Shown: positions 20,865 through 36,549, counted from the first letter of the stretch. The stretch: DNA of 64,000 bases from Sandaracinus amylolyticus (GCF_021631985.1 NZ_CP070225.1:4030001-4094000), one strand, 5' to 3'. The notes: generated by a model not told the origin, from the letters alone. Program-made: numbers and translations.

Positions 20865-23123
20865 ATGCTGGATCGACCGACCGATTGGCCTCTGCCCGGA
20901 CCGATCGACCTCGACGTTCACGACCTTCCACACGCGTCGTCGACGACCGAGTGGTGGTACGTGAACAGCCACCTCGAGGTCGCCGGGGGGCGACGACTGG
21001 CGCTCTTCGCGTCGTTCTTCCGCATCCTCAGCGGGGTCGACAAACAGACGAAGGAGCGCCAGCACGCGCACTCGCTCACCTGGGCGATCGTCGATCTCGA
21101 CCGCGGCGAGTACGTCGCGGACTCGCTCGTCGACAAGCAGGCGCCGCGCATCGGTCTCGAGAAGCTCGATCGCGGTCACGGCACCAGCGATCAGCGCCTC
21201 CGCCGCGCGATCCGCGAGATCCTGGAGAAGGGCGAGGTCCCGCTCCCCGATCGCATGTTCGAGGGCGACGTCACGGTCGCGACGCGCAAGCTCGAGCTCG
21301 ACTACGACGGCCAGCGCTTCGTGAAGAACGACGACGGCACCTACTCGCTGACGCTGCGCCATCCGGGCCGCGCGCTCGGCTGCGATCTGCAGTTCCGCCT
21401 CGACAAGCCGGTGGTGCGCCACGGCGACGACGGCGTGGTCCGCGGGCCGGCCGGCGAGGACATGTTCTATTACTTCTGCCCGCGCGCGACGGTCACGGGG
21501 TCGCTCGTGCTCGACGGGCAGCGCGTGCCGGTGGAGCGCGCGATCGGCTGGTACGACCACGAGTTCGGCGGGCATCGCGAGAGCGGGACGACGGACGCTC
21601 CCGCCGAGGGCGAGCCGGAGCCGGAGCGCGAGGTCGCGTGGAACTGGGTCTCGCTGCAGCTCGACAACGGCGTCGAGATCTCGGCGTACGACCTCTTCGA
21701 TCTCGCGCGTCAGGGCGAGAAGCGCATCGAAGGGCGCACGAAGGTCATCGATCGGGCTGGGCGCGTCGCGAGCCACGACGCGTTCACGCTCGAGGCGAGC
21801 GGACGCTTCGTCTCGACCCGCACGTTCAACGAGTACCCGACGTCGTGGCGGCTGCGTCAGCCCGAGGCGCGGCTGGATCTCGAGCTCGTCGCGCCGGTCG
21901 ACGATCAGGAGTTCATCACCGTGCTCTCGGAGCCGGCGTTCTGGGAAGGACGAGTCGAGGTCCGAGGGACCATCGCGGGCGAGGCGGTGCGCGGCGTCGG
22001 CTTCGTGGAGCGCAGCGGCTTCTCGCACACCGACACGCTCGACGAGTTCTTCTCCGCGGTGGGCACCGAGACGCGCCGCAGCGTGCACTCGATCATGCCG
22101 CTCGAGCCGAGCGTCGCGGAGATGCGCGAGCTGATCGCCTCGCGCGAGCGCGAGCAGTACATGCGCGGCGTCGACGTGCAGCTCGTCGCCGACTACCTGA
22201 CCAAGCCGATCCGCGAGATCGTCGATCGCGGCGGCAAGTCGTGGCGTTCGTACGCGGCGCTCGCGTGCTGCGACGTCGTCGGCGGCGACTCCCGACGCTA
22301 CGTGCGCTGGCTCGCGATGCCGGAGCTGATGCACACCGGATCGCTGATCGTCGACGACGTGCAGGATCGATCGGAGGTCCGGCGCGGCGGGCCGACATGC
22401 CACGCGGTGCACGGCGACGCGATCGCGATCAACTCGGGGACCGCGGCGTACTTCCTCGGGCAGAAGCTGCTGCGCGACGAGGCGATGTCGTCGGCGCGCC
22501 AGGTGCGCATCTACGACCTCTACTTCGAAGCCCTGCGAGCCGGGCACGGCGGTCAGGCGCTCGACCTCGCGGGGCTGCACCAGTTCGTGCCGGCAGCGGT
22601 CGAGTCGGGCGACAGCGCGGATCTCGAGGAGCGTGTGCTCGCGATCCATCGGCTGAAGACCGCGGCACCCGCGGCCGCGCTCGCGCGGATGGGCGCGCTC
22701 GCGGGCCAGGGCACCGAGGCGCAGATCGAGGCGGTCGGCGGGTTCTTCGAGGCGCTCGGCCTCGCGTTCCAGATCGTCGACGACGTGCTCAACCTCGAGG
22801 GCTTCCGCGGCGATCTGAAGACGCGCGGCGAGGACGTGATGCACGGCAAGGTCACCCTGCCGTTCGCGAAGGCGATGTCGCGGCTCGGGCGCGAGGAGCG
22901 CGTCGAGCTGTTCCGCATCGTCGCGTCGAAGCCGAGCGACACGACGGTGGTCGCGCGCGCGGTCGAGATGATGGCGAGCTCGGGCGCGATCGCGGCGTGC
23001 AAGCAGCAGGCGCGCGATCTCGTGGAGGACGCGTGGGCGCGCTTCGATCCGCTGGTCGAGGCGTCGCTCGTGAAGGTGATGCTCCGCGGCTTCGGCTGGT
23101 ACGTGCTGGAGCGCCATTACTGA
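20865..23123 (+). CDS. Fusion: CrtC/AttH-type lipocalin-like domain + polyprenyl diphosphate synthase, 752 aa
   Basis: GAGAGGAG precedes ATG 20865. Residues about 15-400 match the CrtC/AttH double-lipocalin family (carotenoid 1,2-hydratase, attH): EWWYVNSHLE at 29-38, FYYFCPRATVTGS near 205, GWYDHEFGG at 228-236. Residues about 425-745 are an all-helical isoprenyl diphosphate synthase with the first Asp-rich motif DDVQD (497-501), R-RG-PT-H after it, and the second motif QIVDDVLN (636-643) followed by GKVTLPFAKA. A Gly lies five residues before DDVQD where farnesyl synthases have an aromatic, suggesting a C20 or longer product. The fusion implies that the prenyl product is passed to the CrtC-like domain for hydration or cyclisation. 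Substrate and product are inferred. Confidence 0.88.
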   Translation: MLDRPTDWPLPGPIDLDVHDLPHASSTTEWWYVNSHLEVAGGRRLALFASFFRILSGVDKQTKERQHAHSLTWAIVDLDRGEYVADSLVDKQAPRIGLEKLDRGHGTSDQRLRRAIREILEKGEVPLPDRMFEGDVTVATRKLELDYDGQRFVKNDDGTYSLTLRHPGRALGCDLQFRLDKPVVRHGDDGVVRGPAGEDMFYYFCPRATVTGSLVLDGQRVPVERAIGWYDHEFGGHRESGTTDAPAEGEPEPEREVAWNWVSLQLDNGVEISAYDLFDLARQGEKRIEGRTKVIDRAGRVASHDAFTLEASGRFVSTRTFNEYPTSWRLRQPEARLDLELVAPVDDQEFITVLSEPAFWEGRVEVRGTIAGEAVRGVGFVERSGFSHTDTLDEFFSAVGTETRRSVHSIMPLEPSVAEMRELIASREREQYMRGVDVQLVADYLTKPIREIVDRGGKSWRSYAALACCDVVGGDSRRYVRWLAMPELMHTGSLIVDDVQDRSEVRRGGPTCHAVHGDAIAINSGTAAYFLGQKLLRDEAMSSARQVRIYDLYFEALRAGHGGQALDLAGLHQFVPAAVESGDSADLEERVLAIHRLKTAAPAAALARMGALAGQGTEAQIEAVGGFFEALGLAFQIVDDVLNLEGFRGDLKTRGEDVMHGKVTLPFAKAMSRLGREERVELFRIVASKPSDTTVVARAVEMMASSGAIAACKQQARDLVEDAWARFDPLVEASLVKVMLRGFGWYVLERHY

Positions 23124-23453: not shown

Positions 23454-24080
23454 ATGCAGGGCGCGGTGATCGACCGGGCGCGGTCGATCGACGACGTGGC
23501 GTGCGAAGCGGCGTGGGGCGTGGACGCGACGTGCGCGCTCTCGGGCACGGTGCGCGGGCTCCTGGTGCGGCGCTGGGCGGAGAACCTGCGGCGCCGCTTC
23601 GGCGCGGACGCCGCCGATCGGGTGAAGGCGCGGATGGGCGCGCTGGCGCTCGCGGACGATCCCCGCGACGACGCGTGGGTGCCGGTCGCAGCGCAGCTGC
23701 GAGCGACCGAGCTCGTCGTCGAGCTCTTCCTCGGCGGAGATCGCCGCGCGCTCGTGCCGGTCGTGATCGACGACGCGATGCGCAACGCGAGCACGATGTC
23801 GAAGCTCGCGCTGCGCACCGCAGGACCGGGCGCGCTGCTCTCGCGCACCGGGTCGCTGCACGGGCACGCATGCAGCGAAGGACGCGCGGAGGCGTCGGTG
23901 CAGGGCTCGCGGGCGCGGCTGCGCTACGTGGAGAGCCCGCTCTTCGAGCATCCGACGTGGCGCCTGCTCGCGATGACCGGCGCGTGCGGGCTCGTCGCGC
24001 TCTCGAGCCGCACGCTGGTGTCGATCGAGGCCCACGACGTCGGACCGCACGGCTTCGGCCTCGAGATCGCCTGGCGCTAA
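23454..24080 (+). CDS. Hypothetical protein, about 208 aa, DUF2378-like architecture
   Basis: ATG at 23454 is preferred; GTG at 23394 or 23439 would add low-complexity residues. The N-terminal part has GTVRGLLVRRWAENLRRRF, a helical middle with charged and small residues, and a beta-rich end (VESPLFEHPTWRLLAMTG and HGFGLEIAWR). The pattern resembles the myxobacterial DUF2378 (TIGR02265) proteins of unknown function, but only weakly. Its stop (TAA 24078-24080) overlaps the stop of the convergent vWA gene. The 330 bases before the start (23124-23453) hold no recognisable gene. Confidence 0.5.
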   Translation: MQGAVIDRARSIDDVACEAAWGVDATCALSGTVRGLLVRRWAENLRRRFGADAADRVKARMGALALADDPRDDAWVPVAAQLRATELVVELFLGGDRRALVPVVIDDAMRNASTMSKLALRTAGPGALLSRTGSLHGHACSEGRAEASVQGSRARLRYVESPLFEHPTWRLLAMTGACGLVALSSRTLVSIEAHDVGPHGFGLEIAWR

Positions 24081-26638
24081 CGTCCGTCCGCGATGCGCGA
24101 GAGCACGTCGAGGAGCAGCGAGGGGAGCTCCTCGGCCTTCTTCATCGTCATCGTCTCGCCGCCGATCGACGAGACCAGCGCGTCGCGGCTCTCCTTCATC
24201 ACGCAGCCGTGCGCCGCGGCGATCAGCGACACGCCGTGATCGGCGATGCGCGATCCGAGGGTGCGTAGCTCGTCCGGGCGCTCGCTGAACGCGAAGTCGC
24301 TCAGCACGAAGAGCACGCGCAGCGTGGCCTCGACGCCAGTCATCTCGTCCTCGACGAAGCGCAGCGCCTGATCGACGCAGGTGCCGCCGCGCGCGTAGAG
24401 GTCGAGCAGCTCGTCGGCGACCGCGTCGAGATCGGCCTCGTCCGCGAAGCGCTTCACCACGTGGGTGTCGCTCTCGAAGAGCGCGAGGCTGATCTCGTCG
24501 GAGCGCAGCTTCCCGAGGAGCATCACCACCGCGATCGAGCACATCGCGAGATCGGGCCCGCTCATCGAGCCCGAGATGTCGATGAGCACCGAGACCGCGG
24601 CGCGCCCGCGCACCGTCTCCGACACGAGCAGATCGTCGTCGCGCGCGTCGTCGAGGCGACGTCCTTCTTCGATCACGCGCTCGAGGCTCGCGTCGAGATC
24701 GAGCAGATCGAGGTCGTCGCCGGCGCGCATCGGGCGGGTGCGGGTCTCGGGGATCAAGCCGCGCTCCGCGCTCGCGCCCGACTTGCCGAGCCACTCGAAC
24801 GCGAGATCGACCAGCGCGTCCTTCGCGATCGCCTTGATGCGCGACTTGAGGGGATCGACGAGCGCGCCGCGGTGCGAGAACCACTGCTTGAGCAGGTTCG
24901 AGCCGCCGCCGATCCCCTTGAAGCCGAGGCCCTGCATCACGAGGTCCTCGGGCAGGCGCTGGGTCGCGCCGCCGAGATCGATCGCGAGCAGCGCGGCGAT
25001 CGCCTCGAGGTTCGAGGTCTCGCTCGCGACGCCGCAGAGCTCGTCGAGGAGCGCGTGCGGGATCGACCCGATGCGATCGACCAGGCGCGCGTAACGATCG
25101 GCGTCGTGCGCGTCGCCGAGGACCATCGCGCGGAGCTGCTCGAGGGCCTGGCCGATGCGGTCGTAGACCTCGTTGGGATCGATGCCGAGCAGCGTCGCGA
25201 CCTCGACGAGCCGCTCGAGATCGTCGGGGACGAGCGCGTGCTCGAGGAGCTCGTCGAGGAGCGGCAGGAAGTGCGCGGCGACGCGCACGGTGCACGGGAC
25301 CTCGGTGGCGAGCCGTCGCGCGGCCTTCACCGCGGAGGAGACGTTGGTGCCCGCGAGATCGCGCGCGAGCACGATGCTCGCGGCGAGCGCGTGGGGCACC
25401 GGCGGGAGCGCATCGGTGGTCGCGTCGAGGTAGTCGTCCGCGGCCTCTTCGCGCATCTCGAGCACGTGCGCCTCGAGGGCGGGACCGACGAGCGCGTGAT
25501 AGCGGGCCGAGTCGACCGCGACGTCGACGAGCTCGCGCAGCGTGGGCGCACGGCCGAGCGCGCTCGCCCACGCCTCGAGCACACGATCCTCGACGCTGTG
25601 CCCGAAGCGCTCGCGCAGCGTGCGCGCGGCGTTCATCGCGCGCCTCGGGCTCTCGATCGCGGAGCGCGTGATCAGCGCGGCCGAAGGATCGACGTACTCC
25701 TCGAGCCCGAGCAGGAGCTCGGCGTGCTCGGCGAGATCGAGCGGGCGCGCGAGCGCGGCACGGCGGAAGTCGCGCGAGTCGATCGTGTGGGGCGCGACGA
25801 AGCGCAGCGTGGTGCCGAGATCGCGCGGTGACGCGCTGGTCGCGAGATCGGCGAGGTGGGTGCGGAGCTCGCGATCGCGGCCCAGGCCCGCGAGGAAGCC
25901 CGCGACCTCCCAGGGATGACGCGCCTCGTGCGCGAGCAGCGTGCCGAAGCCCGCGCTGCACGCGTGCAGCACGTGCGGGGGCGTGAGCGCGCCGACCTGC
26001 GCGAGGAGGCGCTCACGCACCAGCACGCGAACGTGATCGACGGTGCGCGCCGAGACCGACGCCATCTCCGCGGCGCCGCCGAAGAGCACCACGAGCTCGC
26101 CGAGCGCGCGCTCCTCGGGATCGGCAGACGAATAGAGGCGCTCGAAGAGCTCGAAGGGATCCGAGGAGTCCGGCTTCGCGCCGTCGTCGATCATCGACTC
26201 GAGATCGGCGAGATCGGCGAGCGAGTCGAGGTCGACATCGAGCGCCGCGAGATCACCGAGGATGCCGGAGACCGCGTCGGGCACCGGCGCGGTCGCGACG
26301 ACCTTCGCGTCCTCGCGCACCTTGGTGGGCGACGACGCCGCGCCCGCGGTCTCGGCGCGCGGAAAGAGCAGCTCGCGCGCGACGGACTCCGCGATCGCCT
26401 GGTCCTCGAAGGGCGTCGTGAGGATCGCCGCGTCGAGGTAGTCGCGCGCAGTGAGCCGCTTCGTGCGCGCATAACGCGCGGTGAGGAAGCGCGGGATCGC
26501 GATCGTCGCGCGCAGGCTCGGGGTGCACGCGATCCCGGCGTGACGACGGAGCCTCCGGGTGAGCTCGACCGCGAACGCGATCGGCGTCCACTCCGGCGTC
26601 TCGTCGCCGCGGAAGCGTCCGTCGTCGATCTCGCTCAA
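24077..26638 (-). CDS. Large C-terminal von Willebrand factor A protein, 853 aa
   Basis: TTG at 26638 overlaps the TGA of the MoxR gene (TTGA) and is the only start that leaves no gap. Most of the protein (1-650) is helical and unassigned, with an acidic patch near 190-230. A vWA domain fills about 675-850, with MIDAS LIDISGSMSG near residue 685, and later GGTCVDQALRF and VLFVLSDFAF. MoxR AAA+ proteins commonly work with such C-terminal vWA partners (RavA-ViaA, NorQ-NorD, CbbQ-CbbO), the pair remodelling or metal-loading a client. Here the client is probably encoded in the same operon, which also has a Rad50-like ATPase. Confidence 0.85.
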   Translation of the reverse strand: MSEIDDGRFRGDETPEWTPIAFAVELTRRLRRHAGIACTPSLRATIAIPRFLTARYARTKRLTARDYLDAAILTTPFEDQAIAESVARELLFPRAETAGAASSPTKVREDAKVVATAPVPDAVSGILGDLAALDVDLDSLADLADLESMIDDGAKPDSSDPFELFERLYSSADPEERALGELVVLFGGAAEMASVSARTVDHVRVLVRERLLAQVGALTPPHVLHACSAGFGTLLAHEARHPWEVAGFLAGLGRDRELRTHLADLATSASPRDLGTTLRFVAPHTIDSRDFRRAALARPLDLAEHAELLLGLEEYVDPSAALITRSAIESPRRAMNAARTLRERFGHSVEDRVLEAWASALGRAPTLRELVDVAVDSARYHALVGPALEAHVLEMREEAADDYLDATTDALPPVPHALAASIVLARDLAGTNVSSAVKAARRLATEVPCTVRVAAHFLPLLDELLEHALVPDDLERLVEVATLLGIDPNEVYDRIGQALEQLRAMVLGDAHDADRYARLVDRIGSIPHALLDELCGVASETSNLEAIAALLAIDLGGATQRLPEDLVMQGLGFKGIGGGSNLLKQWFSHRGALVDPLKSRIKAIAKDALVDLAFEWLGKSGASAERGLIPETRTRPMRAGDDLDLLDLDASLERVIEEGRRLDDARDDDLLVSETVRGRAAVSVLIDISGSMSGPDLAMCSIAVVMLLGKLRSDEISLALFESDTHVVKRFADEADLDAVADELLDLYARGGTCVDQALRFVEDEMTGVEATLRVLFVLSDFAFSERPDELRTLGSRIADHGVSLIAAAHGCVMKESRDALVSSIGGETMTMKKAEELPSLLLDVLSRIADGR

Positions 26639-27531
26639 CCGGTGGTCCCCAGCGTCTTGGTGAGGAGCGAGTCGAGGTAGTGCTCGAGGTTGCGGCCCGG
26701 CTTCACGCGGATCGCCTCGGAGAGCACGAGGCGCGCGGCCTGCGCGAGCAGCTTGTGATCGATGGGCTGACCGAGGCGTCGCGCGCGCTCGGCGGCGAAG
26801 CGCGCGATGCCGATGCTCGAGCGGATCGACGCGGGCGACTCGATCGCGGGGTCCTCTCGCGTCTGCTCGACCATCTCGAGCACGAGCTCGATCTGACCGG
26901 GCGCGAGCTTGTACTCGCCGCAGTGCTGCTCGACGATCTTCAGCTCGGTCGCGCGCTTCGGGTACGCGAGGCGGATCCAGACCTTGATGCGATCGCGGAT
27001 CGCGCTCGGGAGGCGTCGCGTGCCGCGGTTCTCGGTCGGGTTCATCGCGGCGATCAGATAGAAGTCCTCGTGCACGCGGTACCACGCGCGCAGTGCGGGG
27101 ATGTAGAGGCGACGCTCCTCGAGCGCGTCGAGCATCGTGTTGAGCACGTACTCGTCGCCGCGGTTGAGCTCGTTCGCGAGGAACACGCCGCCCTTCAGCG
27201 CGGCGAGCGTGAAGGGCCCGGGCACGAACGCCTCGGGCGCGTAGCCGTACTTGAACACGAGCGTCGGATCGAAGCTGCCGACGAGGTTCGCGGGGCGCAC
27301 GAGATCGCTGAACGTGACCCACTCGAAGGGCCGCCCGAGGTCCTCGGCGAACTTGCGGCACAGCGCGGTCTTGCCCGCCCCCACCGGCCCGATCAGCCCG
27401 ACGAAGAGCCCCGCGTTGTGTGCGTCGAGCATCGCGTCGTACGCCTCTCGGTACTGCCCCTCGAGCACGACGCCGGACTCGCTGCGCGGATCGTCGACCT
27501 TCGCGCGCGCCAAGAGCTCCACGTGATCCAC
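26635..27531 (-). CDS. MoxR-family AAA+ ATPase, 298 aa
   Basis: GTG at 27531 lies two bases after the upstream stop. Walker A is GPVGAGKT (48-55); Walker B is FLANELNRG (117-125) with Glu121; a sensor-1 Asn follows in LIAAMNPTENRG; the arginine-finger region is RLPSAIRDRIK. The C-terminal lid is helical (RSSIGIARFAAERARRLG). MoxR ATPases form hexamers that remodel partner proteins together with vWA proteins. The coupled vWA gene follows directly (TTGA overlap). Confidence 0.92.
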   Translation of the reverse strand: MDHVELLARAKVDDPRSESGVVLEGQYREAYDAMLDAHNAGLFVGLIGPVGAGKTALCRKFAEDLGRPFEWVTFSDLVRPANLVGSFDPTLVFKYGYAPEAFVPGPFTLAALKGGVFLANELNRGDEYVLNTMLDALEERRLYIPALRAWYRVHEDFYLIAAMNPTENRGTRRLPSAIRDRIKVWIRLAYPKRATELKIVEQHCGEYKLAPGQIELVLEMVEQTREDPAIESPASIRSSIGIARFAAERARRLGQPIDHKLLAQAARLVLSEAIRVKPGRNLEHYLDSLLTKTLGTTG

Positions 27532-27533
27532 GA

Positions 27534-28103
27534 TCAGTCCTCCGTCTCGTCGCTCGTCGTCTCGTCTTCGCCCGCGAAGAAGCGCTCGGTCGTCGTCGGC
27601 TCGACCACGCGCGGCAGCGTGAGCTTGATCCGCGCGCACGCCTCTTCGAGCTTCGCGAGCTCGTCCTTGCCGAGCACGCGACGTCGCTCGAACCCGAGGC
27701 TGCGCATCAGGCTCTTGCCGTGATAGGTGCGGACGAGCTCGGTGCAGTCGTAGCTCGCGCGACCACGCGCGCCGCGCTGCACGATGCGCGCGGACGCGAG
27801 CTCCTTGAGGCGCACCGCGGCGACGAGCTTCGCGAGCCACGGCCATCCGGGCTGCGCGACGAAGCGATGCGCGATCGCGGGCTCGGCATCGAGGCGCGCC
27901 TTGAGCAGCCCGAGCACGACCTTCTGCGCGCGCGCGGTCGCGACCGCCTCCGCGACCTCTTCGAAGGGCCCCATGCCCGCGAGGATCTCGGGCTGCGTGA
28001 GGATCGGATCGCGCAGCCCCTCGTCGACGAAGCCGTGCAGCTCGTACCAGACGCGGTAGACGGGCGAGCGCCAGGTGCGATCGACCTCGGGCGTGTCGCT
28101 CAC
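27534..28103 (-). CDS. Hypothetical operon protein between SMC-like and MoxR genes, 189 aa
   Basis: GTG at 28103 overlaps the stop of the SMC-like gene (GTGA). The product begins SDTPEVDRTWRSPVYRVWYE, has a helical centre (FEEVAEAVATARAQKVVLGL, VAAVRLKELASARIV) and an acidic Glu/Asp/Thr end (GEDETTSDETED). The segment with helix-turn-helix-like arrangement near 95-130 could be a winged helix, but I do not recognise the family. Its invariant coupling in the operon suggests it is a client or adaptor joining the Rad50-like and MoxR/vWA parts. Confidence 0.7.
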   Translation of the reverse strand: MSDTPEVDRTWRSPVYRVWYELHGFVDEGLRDPILTQPEILAGMGPFEEVAEAVATARAQKVVLGLLKARLDAEPAIAHRFVAQPGWPWLAKLVAAVRLKELASARIVQRGARGRASYDCTELVRTYHGKSLMRSLGFERRRVLGKDELAKLEEACARIKLTLPRVVEPTTTERFFAGEDETTSDETED

Positions 28104-30193
28104 GCGGCCTCCACGCGGCTGTGCTTGCCGTGCCGCACGACGCGGAGGCGGCGTCCGGTGACGCCCTCGGTGTCGTGGTGCGTGATGAGCAGGATCTGCG
28201 GCGTGATCTCGAGCGACGCGATGCGCGCGAGCAGCGCGGCGCGGCGCGGCCGATCGAGGCCGTAGGTCGGCTCGTCGAGGAGCAGGAACGGCGGAGGTCC
28301 GACGAGGCGCGCGATCGCGAGCTCGAGCGCGAGCCCGAGCAGGAGGCGATGACCGCCGCCTTGTGCCGCGCTGGCGGGCACCTCGCGACCGATGTCGTTC
28401 GGCGTGACCAGGAGCGCGTAGCTCTCGGGATCGAGGCGCACGCTCTTGAGCTCGGCGTTCTTCGCGTCGTGCGCGTCGCCCTGGAGCGCGCGGTGGATCG
28501 TGTGGGTGTGCTCGGCGAGCGCGCTCGCTGCGCGATCGCGGAGGATCGCCTGGAGCTCGCGGAATCCTTCGGAGAGCACGCGCAGCCGGCTCGCGGTCGA
28601 CGCGAGCTCGCGCAGTCGCTCGCACGCGGTGAGGGTGCGCGCGTGCTCGCGCTCGATCTCCGCGGCGCGCCGCGTGCGCGCATCATGCTCCGTCGCGTAG
28701 CGCCCGCGGCTCTCGCGCACCACGTCGCGCTCGGCATCGAGGCGCGCGCGTCGAGTGCGCAGCGCGTCGCGCTCGGCCTCCAGCTTCGCGGCGAGCGCCG
28801 CGGCGAGCGCATCGGCGTCGGCGGGCGGATCGGAGAGCTGCGGGCGCGCTGTGTCGATCGCGACCGCGAGCGCGCGCGCCGCTTCGTCGAAGGACGCGGT
28901 GCGGCGCTCGACGAGCCTCTGCGCATCGGCGCGACGTGCGGCGAGCGCCTCGGCGCGGGCGCGCGACTCCGCGATGCGCCGCGACTCGGCGCGGAGCGTC
29001 GCGCTGGACTCGCGCATCGTCGCGAGCTCGGCCTCGATCGCGCCGAGGCGCGCATCGGTGCTCGCGAGCTCCGCGCTCCACGCCTCGATCTCGCGCGCTG
29101 CGAGCGCAGCGTCGATCGTCTGCCCACACGCCTCGCACCGGGCGCCCGCGCCGGCGTGCGCGTGATCGCGGCGACGTGCGATCCGCGCACCGATATCGCC
29201 GCGCGCGCGATCGAGCGTGCGACGCTCGGCGTCGAGCTTCTGCTGGTGCGCGTCGATCTCGCGCTCGCGCATCGCGAGGTCGGACGCGCGCTGATCCTCG
29301 TTCGCGCCGCTCGCCTCCGCGCTCGGCAGCGACTCGAGCGCGCTGATCGCATCGGCGCGCGCTTCCTCGGCACGGCGATGCTCGGCACGTGCACGCTCGA
29401 GCCGGGCGGCCACGTCCGAGAGCGGCGCGATCGCAGCGAGCGCGCTCGCGATGGCGGCGGCCTCTCCCTCGAACGACGCGAGGCGCTCGTCGAGCCGTGC
29501 GCGCTCGGTCGCGAGCCGCTCGATCTCGGCGCGTCCTCCCTCGCGATCGAGCTCCATCCGACGCAGCGACTCCTCGAGCACCGGGAGCGTCGCGCACTCC
29601 TTCTCGCGCTCGAGCGCCATCGCGCGCATCTCGTCCGCAGCGACCACCGCCGACGTGACGCCGAGCACGATGTCGAGCTCGCGCGGCGCGCCCTCGAGGA
29701 TCGCGGTGATCTCGCCCTGCCGGAGGTGCACCGCGACGTCGAAGAAGCGCCGGGTGAGCCCGAGCGCGCGAGAGAGCTCGAGGGCGAGCGCGTCCTCGCG
29801 ATCCTCGAAGTCCGAGCTCGCGACGTAGGTCTCGACGTCCTCGCCCTCTTCGCTCGGCGCGTCGATCGGGCGCGCGCTGCGCTTCAGCGTGAAGTGCCCG
29901 ATCGTCGTGCTGCGCGAGCGCGGCGGGAGCGCGTGCATGCGCTGGAGGCGATAGCGGTGTCCATCGCGACCGCGGAACACGAGCTCCACGCCCATCGCGC
30001 GCGCCTTGGGCGCCATCAGCGCGGCGATCGTCTTGTGCCCGGTGACGCGACCGAAGAGCGCGTACTCGATCGCGTAGAAAACCGTGCTCTTGCCGGCGTT
30101 GTTCTCGCCCTCGACGAAGTTGATCCCCGGCGCGAACGTGAACGTCTCGTCGCGATAGCGACGGAAGCCCTTGAGGCGCAGCGAGAGGATCAC
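28100..30193 (-). CDS. Rad50/SMC-like ATPase with Cys hook, 697 aa
   Basis: GTG at 30193 overlaps the upstream stop (GTGA). The N-terminal head has Walker A GENNAGKST (29-37). Two coiled-coil arms (about 190-340 and 365-560, rich in Ala/Glu/Arg) flank a Rad50-type zinc hook GARCEACGQT near residue 350. The C-terminal head has the signature AAQGGGHRLLLGLAL, Walker B PPFLLLDEPT near 633, and a terminal His loop ITHHDTEG. It is shorter than SbcC (about 1000 aa), with short arms. No SbcD/Mre11 nuclease gene is present; instead it is coupled to an unknown protein, MoxR and vWA genes. Confidence 0.9.
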   Translation of the reverse strand: MILSLRLKGFRRYRDETFTFAPGINFVEGENNAGKSTVFYAIEYALFGRVTGHKTIAALMAPKARAMGVELVFRGRDGHRYRLQRMHALPPRSRSTTIGHFTLKRSARPIDAPSEEGEDVETYVASSDFEDREDALALELSRALGLTRRFFDVAVHLRQGEITAILEGAPRELDIVLGVTSAVVAADEMRAMALEREKECATLPVLEESLRRMELDREGGRAEIERLATERARLDERLASFEGEAAAIASALAAIAPLSDVAARLERARAEHRRAEEARADAISALESLPSAEASGANEDQRASDLAMREREIDAHQQKLDAERRTLDRARGDIGARIARRRDHAHAGAGARCEACGQTIDAALAAREIEAWSAELASTDARLGAIEAELATMRESSATLRAESRRIAESRARAEALAARRADAQRLVERRTASFDEAARALAVAIDTARPQLSDPPADADALAAALAAKLEAERDALRTRRARLDAERDVVRESRGRYATEHDARTRRAAEIEREHARTLTACERLRELASTASRLRVLSEGFRELQAILRDRAASALAEHTHTIHRALQGDAHDAKNAELKSVRLDPESYALLVTPNDIGREVPASAAQGGGHRLLLGLALELAIARLVGPPPFLLLDEPTYGLDRPRRAALLARIASLEITPQILLITHHDTEGVTGRRLRVVRHGKHSRVEAA

Positions 30194-30444
30194 GTCGGAT
30201 CGCCCTCGCCGTCGCGCTCCTCGACCCCGAGCAGCTCGAGCGTGCGCGCGCGCAAGCGCTCCTTCGCGGCGCCGCTCAGGTTGCCGGTGCGCGTGAGGTT
30301 CTCCTCGTCGTCGAGGAGGAACTGCGCGAAACGGAACGCGCCGCGCGCGACCTCCACGAGGTCGGGGCGCGGCGCGAGAGAGGGCACGTCGGCGAGCAGG
30401 GCGTCGACGCTCGCATCGTGCTTCGGATCCGCCGGTTCGCTCAC
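30190..30444 (-). CDS. Small acidic hypothetical protein, 84 aa, first gene of the SMC-MoxR-vWA operon
   Basis: GTG at 30444 follows the upstream gene by 34 bases. The product starts SEPADPKHDASVDALLADVP and is helical (EVARGAFRFAQFLLDDEENL, RLRARTLELLGVEE). It has no motif I recognise. Its stop overlaps the start of the SMC-like gene (GTGA), so it is made in step with it and may be a small subunit. Confidence 0.65.
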   Translation of the reverse strand: MSEPADPKHDASVDALLADVPSLAPRPDLVEVARGAFRFAQFLLDDEENLTRTGNLSGAAKERLRARTLELLGVEERDGEGDPT

Positions 30445-31522: not shown

Positions 31523-33556
31523 TCAGATCTCCGGCTGTTCCGCGGGCTCGGGCGCGCTCCGCGCGACGCGCAGCGTGATCACCGCGAGCACGATCACCGC
31601 GAGGATCAGCACGGCCCACACGACGAGCGTCTCGCCGCCTGCGCGGTCGAAGAATCCCGGCCCGCGCCACGCGGGGTTGCGCGTCACCGCGCCGATGCTC
31701 GCGGCGCCGGGCTGCACCGCGAGCACGAGCTCTCTCGCGCGCTGGATCTCGTAGCGCGGCGCCGGCGCGTCGGGCGCGCCCGCGAGCACGCGGTAGTCGC
31801 CTGCGGGCGCGGTGACGAAGAGATCGAACGTCGGCACCCGCGCGATCGCCGACGTGATCGCGAGCGGCGCTTCGTCTCCGTCGTGCACGCGGAGCTCGAG
31901 CGAGCGCACACGCGTGGGCCGCGTCGCGACGATCAGCGGGCGCGCTTCTCCCGGTGTGCGCGAGAGCCACGTGCGCGCGATCTCGATCTCGGTGTCGTCC
32001 TCGCCGCGCCCGACGATCACCACCTCGCGCTCGACGAAGCCTGCGCTCGTGACGAGCTCGATCGCGCTCGTGGTGATCCGCTCGATCGGTGCGTCGAGCG
32101 CCACACGGCTCCACCCCTCGGCGAGCTCACCGCGATCGAGCGCACGGACCGAGAGCGCGACGTCGAGCGGCGCCGCAGTGTCACCGAGGAGGTAGCCCCG
32201 CTGCGCGCCATCGCCGTCGACGACGCGCAGATCCGCGAGATCGGTGCGCGCTGCCGAGAGCACGGCCGCAGGCAGCACCACGTGTGCGAGCCCGTCGCGC
32301 GTCTCGGGGATCGTGAGCGTCGCGACGTGCTCGAACGCGCGCTCGTCCGCGTGCGCGCCGGGCCGCATCGCGACCTCGAGCGCCGGGCCCGCCACGAAGC
32401 CCGGCTCGCGCTCGATCACGCCCAGCACCGCGGTGCCCGCGAGGCGTCGATCGAGCAGCTCCTCGCCGACGCGCGTGCCGAAGAGCCGCTGCAGATCGTA
32501 GCTCGGCGCGCGCACGCGCCCTCCGCCGAAGCGCAGCATCGCCGCGCGATCGCCCTCGAACACCAGCGACGGAGCGCGCACCATCGCGGTGATCTCGAGC
32601 CCCTCGAGCGGCGGGCTGTCGCCGTCGTCGATCGTGATCTCGAGCCGATCGCCGCGCGCCGGCGCGACGTCGAGCGATCGCTCGTCCGCGCCGGGGACAC
32701 CCGGCACGCGCAGCACGGTGCCGGTCGCGAGCGGCAGTCGTCCGTGCGCTGCGTCGATCGCGGTGACGTCGATCCGCCGCACGAAGCTCGCGGTGCGCGT
32801 GCCGATCACGATCCGTTCCGGCGTGATGCCCGCGGGGCGCGTCGCGATCACGATCGTGCGACCGCGATCGCGGCGCGTGCTGGCGATCGCGAGCGGCACG
32901 TCGAGCGTCGAGGCGCGCGCGTCGTCACGCACCGCGAGCCACACGAACGTGGGCTCGAGGTAGCCGTCCTCGCCCTCCAGCTCGACGCGCACCCGGCCTC
33001 GACCGAGGCCCGACGTCGGGATCTCGAGCTTCTCGCGCGCCGGGGCGCCGATCCGGAAGAACGCACCGCGCGCGACCTCGCGCTCGCCCTCCGGCGCTTG
33101 CGTCCACACCAGCCTCGCCCGCGTGACGAAGCGCGATCGCGCCGTCGACACGCGCAGCACCCAGGTCGCCCCGACCGGAGGCGCGCTCGGCGTCTCGATC
33201 GTCAGCACCTCGCGCACCTGCATCACACCGCGCACGCGCGTCGCTTCGCGCTCGGCATCGAGCACCGGCGCCGGCGCGTAGGGCGGCGCATCGTGCGGCA
33301 CCGGACGCTCGCCGCGATCGACGAGATAGGGCACCTCGTGGTCGTCGGGGTCGAGCACGCGCACGTCGGACAGATCGGCGCGCGACTCGACGAGCACCTC
33401 GGCGGGCAGCGCGAGCCGCACGAGCCCCGGAGGCGCGTCGATCGTCGCGCGATGCGGGAAGAGCCGCACGAGCGGCGGCGTGGCCTGCGCCGACGCGATG
33501 CTCGGTGCGATCACCAGCGCGGCCACGACGATCGAGAGCGAGCGGAGCGAGCTCAT
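31523..33556 (-). CDS. DUF3999-like exported protein, 677 aa
   Basis: ATG at 33556 overlaps the stop of the DUF2339 gene (ATGA). A signal peptide (LSIVVAALVIAPSIASA) is followed by about 600 residues of beta-rich repeats in two related halves (VRLALPAEVLVESRADLSDV near 40 and HVVLPAAVLSAARTDLADL near 420), and one C-terminal transmembrane helix (LVVWAVLILAVIVLAVITL). DUF3999 proteins occur next to DUF2339 membrane proteins in many Gram-negative genomes; the pair is presumed to act in the envelope, role unknown. The periplasmic portion would face outward. Confidence 0.85.
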   Translation of the reverse strand: MSSLRSLSIVVAALVIAPSIASAQATPPLVRLFPHRATIDAPPGLVRLALPAEVLVESRADLSDVRVLDPDDHEVPYLVDRGERPVPHDAPPYAPAPVLDAEREATRVRGVMQVREVLTIETPSAPPVGATWVLRVSTARSRFVTRARLVWTQAPEGEREVARGAFFRIGAPAREKLEIPTSGLGRGRVRVELEGEDGYLEPTFVWLAVRDDARASTLDVPLAIASTRRDRGRTIVIATRPAGITPERIVIGTRTASFVRRIDVTAIDAAHGRLPLATGTVLRVPGVPGADERSLDVAPARGDRLEITIDDGDSPPLEGLEITAMVRAPSLVFEGDRAAMLRFGGGRVRAPSYDLQRLFGTRVGEELLDRRLAGTAVLGVIEREPGFVAGPALEVAMRPGAHADERAFEHVATLTIPETRDGLAHVVLPAAVLSAARTDLADLRVVDGDGAQRGYLLGDTAAPLDVALSVRALDRGELAEGWSRVALDAPIERITTSAIELVTSAGFVEREVVIVGRGEDDTEIEIARTWLSRTPGEARPLIVATRPTRVRSLELRVHDGDEAPLAITSAIARVPTFDLFVTAPAGDYRVLAGAPDAPAPRYEIQRARELVLAVQPGAASIGAVTRNPAWRGPGFFDRAGGETLVVWAVLILAVIVLAVITLRVARSAPEPAEQPEI

Positions 33557-36549
33557 GCGGCCTCCGGTGCAGGCTTGCGGAACACGAAGCGCTGGTACGC
33601 GAGCGACACGAGGATCAGCGACACCGCGAGCCCCGAGAGCGCGGCGACGCGATAGAGATCGCGCAGGTGCGAGAGGTCGTAGAGGAAGACCTTCGCGCAC
33701 GTGATCACGAGCAGGCCCAGGCTCGTCGCGCGCAGCCCGGTGCTGCCGCGCGCCATGCCGAGCGCGAGGAGCACGAGCGCGTAGACCGCCCACGAGATCG
33801 ACATCGCGAGATCGCGCGCCGGCATCCGCTCCATCGGGATCGTCAGCGCGGGCCCGGTCGCGAACCAGTCGATGATCGTGAGGTTGAGCCACACGAACAC
33901 GACGACGAGCCCGGCCGCGAAGAGCGTCGGCGCGAGCAGCGCGCCCTCTGGATAGAGCCCTCGCTCCCACGCGCGACGGCGCGCGACCTCGAGATCCGCG
34001 AGCGCGCGGCTGCCCACGAAGAGCGCGAGCGCGGGCACGAGGTACGTGTACGAGAGCCAGTTGACGATCCGCAGCTCGCCGCGCGGGTAGTAGACGAGCA
34101 CGTCGGGGTTCAGCACCAGACGCACCGTCACCGCGGCGAAGAGCGCCATCGCGAGGTAGCGCACGCCCGCGTGATCGAAGCGACGATCGAGCACGAGCAG
34201 CGCGGCGGCCTCGAGCGCCCAGCCGATCGTCCACCACTCGCGATCGAGCTGCAGCGGGATCGCGAGCGTCACGAACCCGGCCGCGACCGCGATGGGCCAC
34301 ACCAGCGCGACGCGACGCACCGCGCCGTCGAGGCTGCGCGACCGCGCGATCTGCGCGACCGCGAGCGAGAGCAGCGCACAGAGGATCGCGAGCGCACCGA
34401 CGAAACGATCGCCGAGCACCGCGAGCCAGAGGTGACGCAACGAGAGGAACGAGAGCGGCGCGACGAGCGCGGCCGCGCGCCAGCCCCACTCGGTGCGCGC
34501 GAGCCGCGGGGCGAGCGAGGGCCACGCGGCGAGCACGAGCGTGGATCCGGCGAGCAGCGCGAGCCGCTGCGCGTCGATCTCCGCGGGCGCACCGGGGAGC
34601 GCGAAGCGCGCCTGCACGAGCGCGGTCACGACGATCGCTGCCACCGCGATCCACGCACCGCCCTCGCGCGACGCGGCGAAGAGCGCGAGCAGCGCGCACA
34701 CCAGCGACGCGCCGAGGCCTGCGACCGGCGGCACGCCCGGCGCGAGCGCGAGCATCATCCCGCCGAAGAGCGCCGCGACCGCCGCCGCGGCATCGAGCGC
34801 GCGCCGCGAGGTCGGCGTCGCGAGCGACGCGGCGATCTGGAAGGGCACCGCCTGGAGCGGGATCAGCGCTGCGACGAGCGCAGGCGAGGCAGCATCGCGC
34901 GCCGCGTGCGCGAGCGCGTAGGTCGCGATCGGCGCGAGGACCGCCGCGGGCAGCGCGAGCGCCGCACGCCCGGGCAGACACGATGCACGCAGCGCGAGCG
35001 CGAGCAGCACGAGCGCGGCGACCGCGAGGGGCACCCACGCCGGATCCCGCGAGAACGCGACCATCGCGATCGTCGCGAGCGGCGCGGTCGAGGCCAGCGA
35101 CGACGCCGCGCCGAGCTCGAAGCGTGCGCCGCGATCGAGCTCCGCCGACACGTGGAACACCAGCGCGATGACGAGCGCGATCGCGAGCGGCGCGGAGGCG
35201 TCCCCGATCGACGCGAGCGGCCACGAGAGCATGCCGACCGACCACACGCCCACCGCCGCTGCGGACGCGAAGAGCGCGATCCACGGCAGCCCGTCGCGGC
35301 GCGCGACGAACGCGCTGCCGATCGCGAGCACCACGAGGAGCGCCGCGGTCGCGCCGAGCGCGAGCGGCGCGCTCGAGAGGCGAGCGAACGCGAGAACGAG
35401 CAGGAACGGATGGAGCACCGCGCCCGCGCGGAGCAGCACGGTCCACCCATCGGACGTCGCGTCCCCCTCGCGTCGGGGAGCGGGCGCTAGCACGAAGAGC
35501 GCGGCGAACGCGACGACGATCGCCACGCCGACGAGCACCGTCGCATCACCCATCGAAGCGAAGACCCAGAGCAGCTGATAGAGCGCGGTCGCGACGAACG
35601 AGAGCAGCGCGAGCCCCGGCCAGCGCTTGCGATACGCGAGCACGAGCAAGCCCGCGTCGAGCACCAGCAGGTACGCGAAGAGCGGGATGGGTCGATCGGC
35701 GCCGGTCGAGAGCGCGAGCGGCGTGAGGAACCCGCCGGAGAGACCGAGCAGTGCGATCGGGAGCGAGCTGCGTCGCGCCGAGAGCACCACGCAAGCGACG
35801 GTGACCGCGACCATGAGCGCGCCCGAGATGCCGAGCGGCACGAGCTCGTAGAGCGCGCTCGCGGCCCACGACGCGAGATAGAGGATCGCGACGCCCGCGC
35901 CCGCGATCCATCCGGAGAGCGCAGGGAAGCGCGTGCGCAGCGGCCACTCCGAGGCGACGACGCACGCGAGCCCGACCAGCCCCCCGAGCGCGACGCGGAG
36001 CGCGGGCGTGATCCACCCGTGCTCGATCGAGTACTGGAAGAGCGAGAGCCCCGCGATGACGAGCACGATCGCGCCCGCGGCCGCCGCACCACGCACGCCG
36101 ATCCAGCGCTCCCACGCGCCGGTCGAGTCGCTCGGAGCCGGCGGAGGCGGAGGCGGAGGCGGAGCAGGCGGGGGCGGTGCGGGCGGGCTCGCACCGGAGG
36201 GCGGCGCCACGTCGCTCTCGGTCGTCTCAGCCGCAGGAGCCGGCGCGACGGGCTCGGTCTCGGCTTCGGTCTCGCTCTCGGCCGCAGTCTCGGACTGCTC
36301 CACGACCGTCTCGACGCGCGGCGTCATCACGACCGCCGCGCCGTCCCACCGCGACATCCGAGTCAGGAGCGTGGTGTGTTCACCACGCAGTCGAACCACT
36401 TCGGCTTCGAGCTCGGCGACACGCCGCGCGAGCTCGTGGTCCGGTTTCGGTCGCGCGATCGCGACGATCCCAGCGATGGCTGCGAGCACGAGGGCCACCG
36501 GCCCTCCCAAGCACAACGCCATCGCGAACAGAGTCTCGAGCTCCTGCAT
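33553..36549 (-). CDS. DUF2339 polytopic membrane protein, 998 aa
   Basis: ATG at 36549 has GGGAGG upstream. One N-terminal hydrophobic helix (8-30) is followed by a coiled coil (about 38-65), a Glu/Pro-rich linker with a polyproline tract (about 120-140), WERWIGVRGAAAAGAIVLV, and then some 25 or more hydrophobic helices to the end. This is the standard DUF2339 layout. Function is not established for the family. It is co-transcribed with the DUF3999 gene through an ATGA overlap. Confidence 0.9.
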   Translation of the reverse strand: MQELETLFAMALCLGGPVALVLAAIAGIVAIARPKPDHELARRVAELEAEVVRLRGEHTTLLTRMSRWDGAAVVMTPRVETVVEQSETAAESETEAETEPVAPAPAAETTESDVAPPSGASPPAPPPPAPPPPPPPPAPSDSTGAWERWIGVRGAAAAGAIVLVIAGLSLFQYSIEHGWITPALRVALGGLVGLACVVASEWPLRTRFPALSGWIAGAGVAILYLASWAASALYELVPLGISGALMVAVTVACVVLSARRSSLPIALLGLSGGFLTPLALSTGADRPIPLFAYLLVLDAGLLVLAYRKRWPGLALLSFVATALYQLLWVFASMGDATVLVGVAIVVAFAALFVLAPAPRREGDATSDGWTVLLRAGAVLHPFLLVLAFARLSSAPLALGATAALLVVLAIGSAFVARRDGLPWIALFASAAAVGVWSVGMLSWPLASIGDASAPLAIALVIALVFHVSAELDRGARFELGAASSLASTAPLATIAMVAFSRDPAWVPLAVAALVLLALALRASCLPGRAALALPAAVLAPIATYALAHAARDAASPALVAALIPLQAVPFQIAASLATPTSRRALDAAAAVAALFGGMMLALAPGVPPVAGLGASLVCALLALFAASREGGAWIAVAAIVVTALVQARFALPGAPAEIDAQRLALLAGSTLVLAAWPSLAPRLARTEWGWRAAALVAPLSFLSLRHLWLAVLGDRFVGALAILCALLSLAVAQIARSRSLDGAVRRVALVWPIAVAAGFVTLAIPLQLDREWWTIGWALEAAALLVLDRRFDHAGVRYLAMALFAAVTVRLVLNPDVLVYYPRGELRIVNWLSYTYLVPALALFVGSRALADLEVARRRAWERGLYPEGALLAPTLFAAGLVVVFVWLNLTIIDWFATGPALTIPMERMPARDLAMSISWAVYALVLLALGMARGSTGLRATSLGLLVITCAKVFLYDLSHLRDLYRVAALSGLAVSLILVSLAYQRFVFRKPAPEAA

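Follow-up and report, generated by a model that had tools for sequence, protein, structure and literature searches.

A conserved five-gene cassette of Myxococcota encodes a Rad50-like ATPase together with a MoxR-vWA pair and two small proteins

Five consecutive genes in the window, the whole 64,000-nucleotide stretch of Sandaracinus amylolyticus DNA that we analyzed (genome size 10.96 Mb), encode a Rad50-like ATPase, a MoxR-type AAA+ protein, a von Willebrand A (vWA) protein and two small proteins (Table 1). Judged from sequence comparison, the Rad50-like gene and the MoxR/vWA pair are a conserved unit, and they were never found apart in the searches made. We moderately favor the view that the five genes encode one machine, with a MoxR-vWA motor, a Rad50-like client and the small proteins as subunits or adaptors. 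A bolder proposal, in which the MoxR-vWA pair would be dedicated to loading or unloading a hook-dimerized, nuclease-free Rad50-like clamp via two adaptors and would thus represent a new class of DNA machine, we hold more tentatively, at a little short of an even chance.

Table 1. Genes of the cassette, in order of transcription (positions counted from the first letter of the window)
Product	Coordinates	Strand	Features
84-aa protein (P0005)	30444-30190	-	First cassette gene; core around FLLDDEENLT conserved; without known family
Rad50-like ABC ATPase (P0004), 697 aa	30193-28100	-	Pfam AAA_23/SMC_N; CxxC hook
189-aa protein (P0003)	28103-27534	-	Mostly helical; conserved C-terminal ARIKLTLPxxVEPTTTERFF
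MoxR-type AAA+ protein (P0002), 298 aa	27531-26635	-	Pfam AAA_5/AAA_3
vWA protein (P0001), 853 aa	26638-24077	-	Pfam VWA_2, residues 684-782

A first-pass annotation of the window had described five coupled minus-strand genes running from 30444 to 24077, and we recovered the reading frames and junctions exactly as it gave them. In the window sequence, adjacent genes are joined by three four-base start-stop overlaps (GTGA between the 84-aa and Rad50-like genes, GTGA between the Rad50-like and 189-aa genes, TTGA between the MoxR and vWA genes) and by one two-base gap between the 189-aa and MoxR genes. At the first and second junctions, RTGA starts were kept in all seven loci described below. The NTGA overlap of MoxR and vWA was present in five; the junction is TGATG in L021, and in L017 an opposite-strand gene lies in between. 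Retention of the start-stop overlaps across loci suggests linked stoichiometry. The intervening gene of L017 (7578-9830, minus strand), from the Sandaracinaceae SSF7 MAG, encodes a 751-aa secreted-type protein, and the contig ends inside the vWA gene.

The same five genes occur in the same order in the window and in six other genomes or MAGs. These seven loci represent about five Myxococcota lineages: the genus of the window (the window and G178), L017/G588, L019 and L020 (one genus), L018/G322, and L021/G216. When genome contigs were scanned with a MoxR alignment, five loci came up, all five with the cassette; searches of the class and the phylum gave the same carriers plus the sister species G178, and the MoxR search of the class gave three further carriers, each with the cassette, which is present in 5 of 318 class genomes. 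When the 189-aa, vWA and Rad50-like proteins were searched separately, as single-protein or profile queries, against 360-379 sampled Myxococcota genomes, each returned the same four carriers (the genome of the window, G000, with G178, G216 and G322). With the 189-aa profile the carriers scored down to 9e-73 and the next match was at 0.04, a wide gap without intermediates; for the Rad50-like profile we chose a cut-off of 1e-45 to keep out cross-matching ordinary SMC and Rad50 proteins. Since three queries converged on the same four genomes without intermediates, the association is not accidental. The in-depth survey covered Myxococcota, and the sole genome-wide scan used two short MoxR motifs, with which diverged relatives in other phyla would be missed. 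Pairwise divergences of the five proteins were correlated (0.89-0.98, with compatible groupings); close pairs raise the value, and we take it as supporting evidence only.

Apart from the sister species G178, no flanking genes were shared among the seven loci, and only the five cassette genes were conserved. We saw no defence or repair genes in the scanned flanks, which hold metabolic or surface genes instead. The gene pair on the left flank of the cassette in the window was present in four genomes of the same family without the cassette alongside, and in G588 the cassette lies on another contig than this pair. We conclude that the cassette is an accessory unit of variable position. Chance adjacency of the Rad50-like gene and the MoxR/vWA pair, the alternative that the first-pass annotation proposed to examine by a neighborhood survey, is ruled out by the co-occurrence and flank comparisons, with the five-gene order conserved at seven loci. 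A phage or plasmid origin of the cassette was unsupported: no MoxR relatives were found in viral contigs, the 189-aa, vWA and Rad50-like proteins had no plasmid matches, and among the matches listed the MoxR protein matched phage proteins at 24-30% only.

The Rad50-like protein carries an N-terminal P-loop (GENNAGKS), Q159 in the motif RQG, a Walker B motif (LLLDEP) and H672, and its short coiled coil bears a CEACG hook at residues 353-357. C353, C356, G357, Q159, D640-E641, D647 and H672 were invariant in all seven homologues. The two ATPase halves and the hook are the best conserved parts, and the coiled coil is the least conserved. The signature motif, at the position of the Rad50 GGE region in the alignment, reads QGGGHR instead of the SGGE type. 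In a profile comparison with solved proteins, archaeal Rad50 heads ranked first (1e-27). Together with the Pfam matches and the hook cysteines and glycine kept in 7/7 homologues, these features bear out the earlier reading of this protein as a Rad50/SMC-type ATPase with a Cys hook. In one MAG the Rad50-like gene has a frame break just past the P-loop (L020:7532-7741), which may reflect a faulty MAG sequence or a true pseudogene.

No Mre11 or SbcD gene lies beside the cassette in any of the seven loci, so the lack of a nuclease partner, also remarked on at first pass, holds throughout. An SbcD that scored above the curated cut-off was found elsewhere in the genomes of all seven carriers, and the genome of the window has a canonical SbcD-SbcC pair at about 1204.9-1210.1 kb (G000:C1; L049:4919-10074, plus strand). 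The Rad50-like protein as housekeeping SbcC is ruled out by this side-by-side pair in its own genome, and since canonical SbcD is encoded apart from the cassette in all carriers, the cassette is not housekeeping Mre11-Rad50. It shares with Mre11-Rad50/SbcCD the Rad50 head and the zinc-hook motif but has no nuclease gene, an atypical signature and a protein of 697 aa as opposed to the 1273-aa SbcC-type protein of the same genome. By its predicted features, then, the cassette ATPase is an additional, nuclease-free relative of Rad50.

The MoxR protein is the most conserved protein of the cassette (67-98% identity). It matched AAA_5 (9e-20) and AAA_3 (1e-13) in Pfam, with a weak bpMoxR match below the cut-off, and has a Walker A motif GPVGAGKT and a sensor AAMNP. 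In its Walker B motif, FLANELNR, Asn takes the place of the usual Asp (NE, not DE) and the Glu is retained; this catalytic Glu and Walker A were invariant among the homologues. Its closest solved relative is Midasin (E = 1e-28), and its best NCBIfam match, below the cut-off, is GvpN. The earlier claim of a MoxR-vWA pair thus stands on the AAA_5/AAA_3 and VWA_2 matches, although the MoxR member is nearer Midasin and GvpN than RavA or NorQ. The NE motif is not unique to the cassette, since a MoxR-vWA pair without a Rad50-like gene (L036:8053-9812, minus strand, in G083) has the Walker B motif LLLNELNR; this MoxR may belong to a sister lineage. Given the Walker B Asn and the QGGGHR signature of the Rad50-like protein, hydrolysis may be unusual in both ATPases. 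A MoxR paralogue near 4.16 Mb of the window's genome (L016) lies beside a DUF58-like gene and was set aside as apparently ordinary.

In the predicted structure of the vWA protein (mean pLDDT 70.9, with lower confidence in the vWA part), a helical N-terminal segment (residues 19-91) without a Pfam family is followed by a low-confidence linker, an all-helical region (161-616) and the C-terminal vWA domain (VWA_2, 2e-9). The MIDAS is intact (D687-S689-S691, T753 and D781) and invariant among the homologues. The best structural match of residues 603-851 was NorD (Z = 14.3, 3.1 A over 182 residues), with the MIDAS domain of Rea1/MDN1 at Z = 13.0-13.3, and both alignments reach upstream of the vWA core; other vWA domains also scored Z = 12.6-14, so the preference for NorD is slight. 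On this model the vWA domain is NorD/Midasin-like. It ends the protein in all complete homologues, and variable C-terminal effector domains are absent.

The two small proteins had no matches in Pfam, NCBIfam, PHROGs or PADLOC and no relatives among solved proteins. The 189-aa protein, which might have proved to belong to a housekeeping family, is thus placed in no known family. Its model is mostly helical (pLDDT 79.4), its best conserved part is the C-terminal stretch IKLTLP-VEPTTTERFF, and a fold search with the model gave no confident match; an XPB/Ssl2-like assignment of residues 100-166 was rejected because its Z score, at most 4.8, is below a trustworthy level. The 84-aa protein has a homologue in all seven loci and keeps a core around LLDD-LT.

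How such proteins might work together is suggested by NorQD, in which a finger of the vWA protein enters the AAA+ pore and ATP twists the vWA protein and its client (PMC13036017). By analogy, the cassette MoxR protein would form an AAA+ ring, and the MIDAS/finger region of the vWA protein would dock there in the way known for NorD on NorQ and for the MIDAS of Midasin on the ring of the same protein. As its dedicated client the pair would have the Rad50-like protein, acting as a hook-dimerized DNA-binding clamp without a nuclease. The 189-aa and 84-aa proteins could be subunits of the clamp or adaptors presenting it to the vWA protein, and a candidate ligand for the MIDAS is the acidic C-terminal stretch VEPTTTERFF of the former. 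The MoxR-vWA pair, twisting with the energy of ATP, would then load the clamp on DNA, open it or strip it. From co-occurrence, gene coupling and the known behavior of these families, we infer the mechanism and with it a physical complex, the identity of the client, the direction of remodelling, DNA as the substrate and an accessory role in defence or DNA maintenance. Several observations speak against such a machine: the client of the pair could be an enzyme encoded elsewhere, the gene that separates MoxR from vWA in L017 is unrelated to them, the Walker B Asn and the QGGGHR signature are atypical, and the vWA protein only slightly prefers NorD to other vWA proteins.

Like NorQ-NorD, CbbQ-CbbO and RavA-ViaA, the cassette has an adjacent MoxR-type AAA+ protein and a MIDAS-intact vWA protein, and the vWA region, including the residues upstream of it, is structurally similar to NorD. 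In contrast to these systems, whose client is a metalloenzyme, its client would be a Rad50-like ATPase; its vWA domain is preceded by a long helical region, its MoxR Walker B reads NE, and its MoxR sequence is nearer Midasin/GvpN. Midasin/Rea1, with the closest solved MoxR relative and a similar MIDAS domain, is a ring motor that pulls its client through the MIDAS, but in this eukaryotic protein, which works on pre-ribosomes, six AAA domains lie in a single polypeptide, while the cassette encodes separate bacterial proteins. Described MoxR-vWA-centric ternary systems have VMAP, iSTAND, FtsH or beta-propeller partners (PMC7159879). The cassette resembles them in having a MoxR-vWA couple with further dedicated components and a patchy distribution in bacteria of complex lifestyle; it differs in its third component, a Rad50-like ABC ATPase, and in a vWA protein without effector domains. 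The Pfam matches of the five proteins included no VMAP, iSTAND, FtsH or beta-propeller, and PMC7159879 makes no mention of an ABC ATPase, SMC or SbcC. The set of MADS was incomplete: the mad3 model alone matched well, to the Rad50-like protein, and mad8 scored just 0.05 against the MoxR protein.

The first-pass annotation had called the combination unfamiliar, and the literature searched holds no description of a Rad50-like protein with a MoxR-vWA pair, although an earlier passing mention is possible. The cassette would therefore extend the known MoxR-vWA-centric systems with an undescribed Rad50-like client. Known targets of remodelling by MoxR-vWA motors are respiratory enzymes, Rubisco and, among eukaryotes, pre-ribosomes; with a dedicated client of the SMC/Rad50 type, if true, DNA machines would join this list. 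The cassette would then offer a compact five-protein system for a direct test of an AAA+ ring that loads or releases a Rad50-like clamp, and a Rad50 relative decoupled from Mre11 that has kept its hook and catalytic Glu.

We weighed two rival readings of the cassette, each of which we consider unlikely taken singly. One possibility is a defence system of the Lamassu/ABC-3C kind, in which the Rad50-like protein would be the sensor of DNA that is foreign or damaged, with the MoxR-vWA pair replacing an enzymatic effector as switch or threshold-setter. The Rad50-like protein matched PADLOC LmuB over its full length (3.8e-26), as did all seven homologues; however, general Rad50 models fit it almost equally well (7e-23). 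LmuB, also of about 650 aa, has coiled coils that are short and frequently carries a CPxCG hook, but the Walker B Glu kept in the cassette protein is generally Gln in LmuB (PMC10586767). Lamassu usually consists of an LmuA effector, LmuC and LmuB, without MoxR or vWA (PMC10586767). The cassette shares with Lamassu/ABC-3C a short hook-bearing Rad50-like ATPase and a small co-encoded protein, yet it adds MoxR and vWA and lacks the effector: none of the five proteins matched LmuA in PADLOC. Neither small protein had a match in PADLOC or Pfam; LmuC is itself small and divergent. Known MoxR-vWA-centric systems have been proposed as conflict systems and are enriched in multicellular bacteria (PMC7159879), and the patchy distribution of the cassette, whose genomic position differs even inside one family, fits such a role. 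On the other hand, the scanned flanks are without defence genes, the components are constant between loci, and the MoxR conservation is unlike that of fast-diverging conflict systems.

Another possibility, equally doubtful, is an accessory of DNA repair or chromosome maintenance, in which the clamp would use its hook to hold DNA ends or sister strands together, uncut, and would be recycled by the MoxR-vWA pair. The kinship with archaeal Rad50 heads, the invariant hook, and the absence of a nuclease and of variable effectors are consistent with this role, which, with canonical SbcD retained in all carriers, would be an additional pathway; rarity and patchiness (4 of 360-379 phylum genomes, 5 of 318 class genomes) and the lack of adjoining repair genes argue against it. 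Patchiness and likeness to LmuB favor defence, and strong MoxR conservation and absent effectors favor DNA maintenance. That the MoxR-vWA pair instead serves the maturation of some unrelated metalloenzyme or complex with genes elsewhere, with the Rad50-like gene only co-regulated, is improbable even though the known bacterial pairs NorQD, CbbQO and RavA-ViaA mature or activate enzymes, as no conserved enzyme gene lies beside the cassette and the pair came with the Rad50-like and small proteins throughout the genomes searched.

Two further observations concern the neighborhood of the cassette in the window. A pair of genes encoding 677-aa and 998-aa proteins (31523-36549, minus strand) is conserved across the family; downstream of this pair the cassette is absent in other genomes, and G345 and G150 have an apparent sigma factor and a partner gene there. 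A gene at 20865-23123 (plus strand) encodes a 752-aa protein, of which the C-terminal part alone (about residues 433-734) matches other genomes of the family and is polyprenyl synthase-like. Its N-terminal half looks like a separate domain, possibly CrtC/AttH-like, and the protein may be a fusion.
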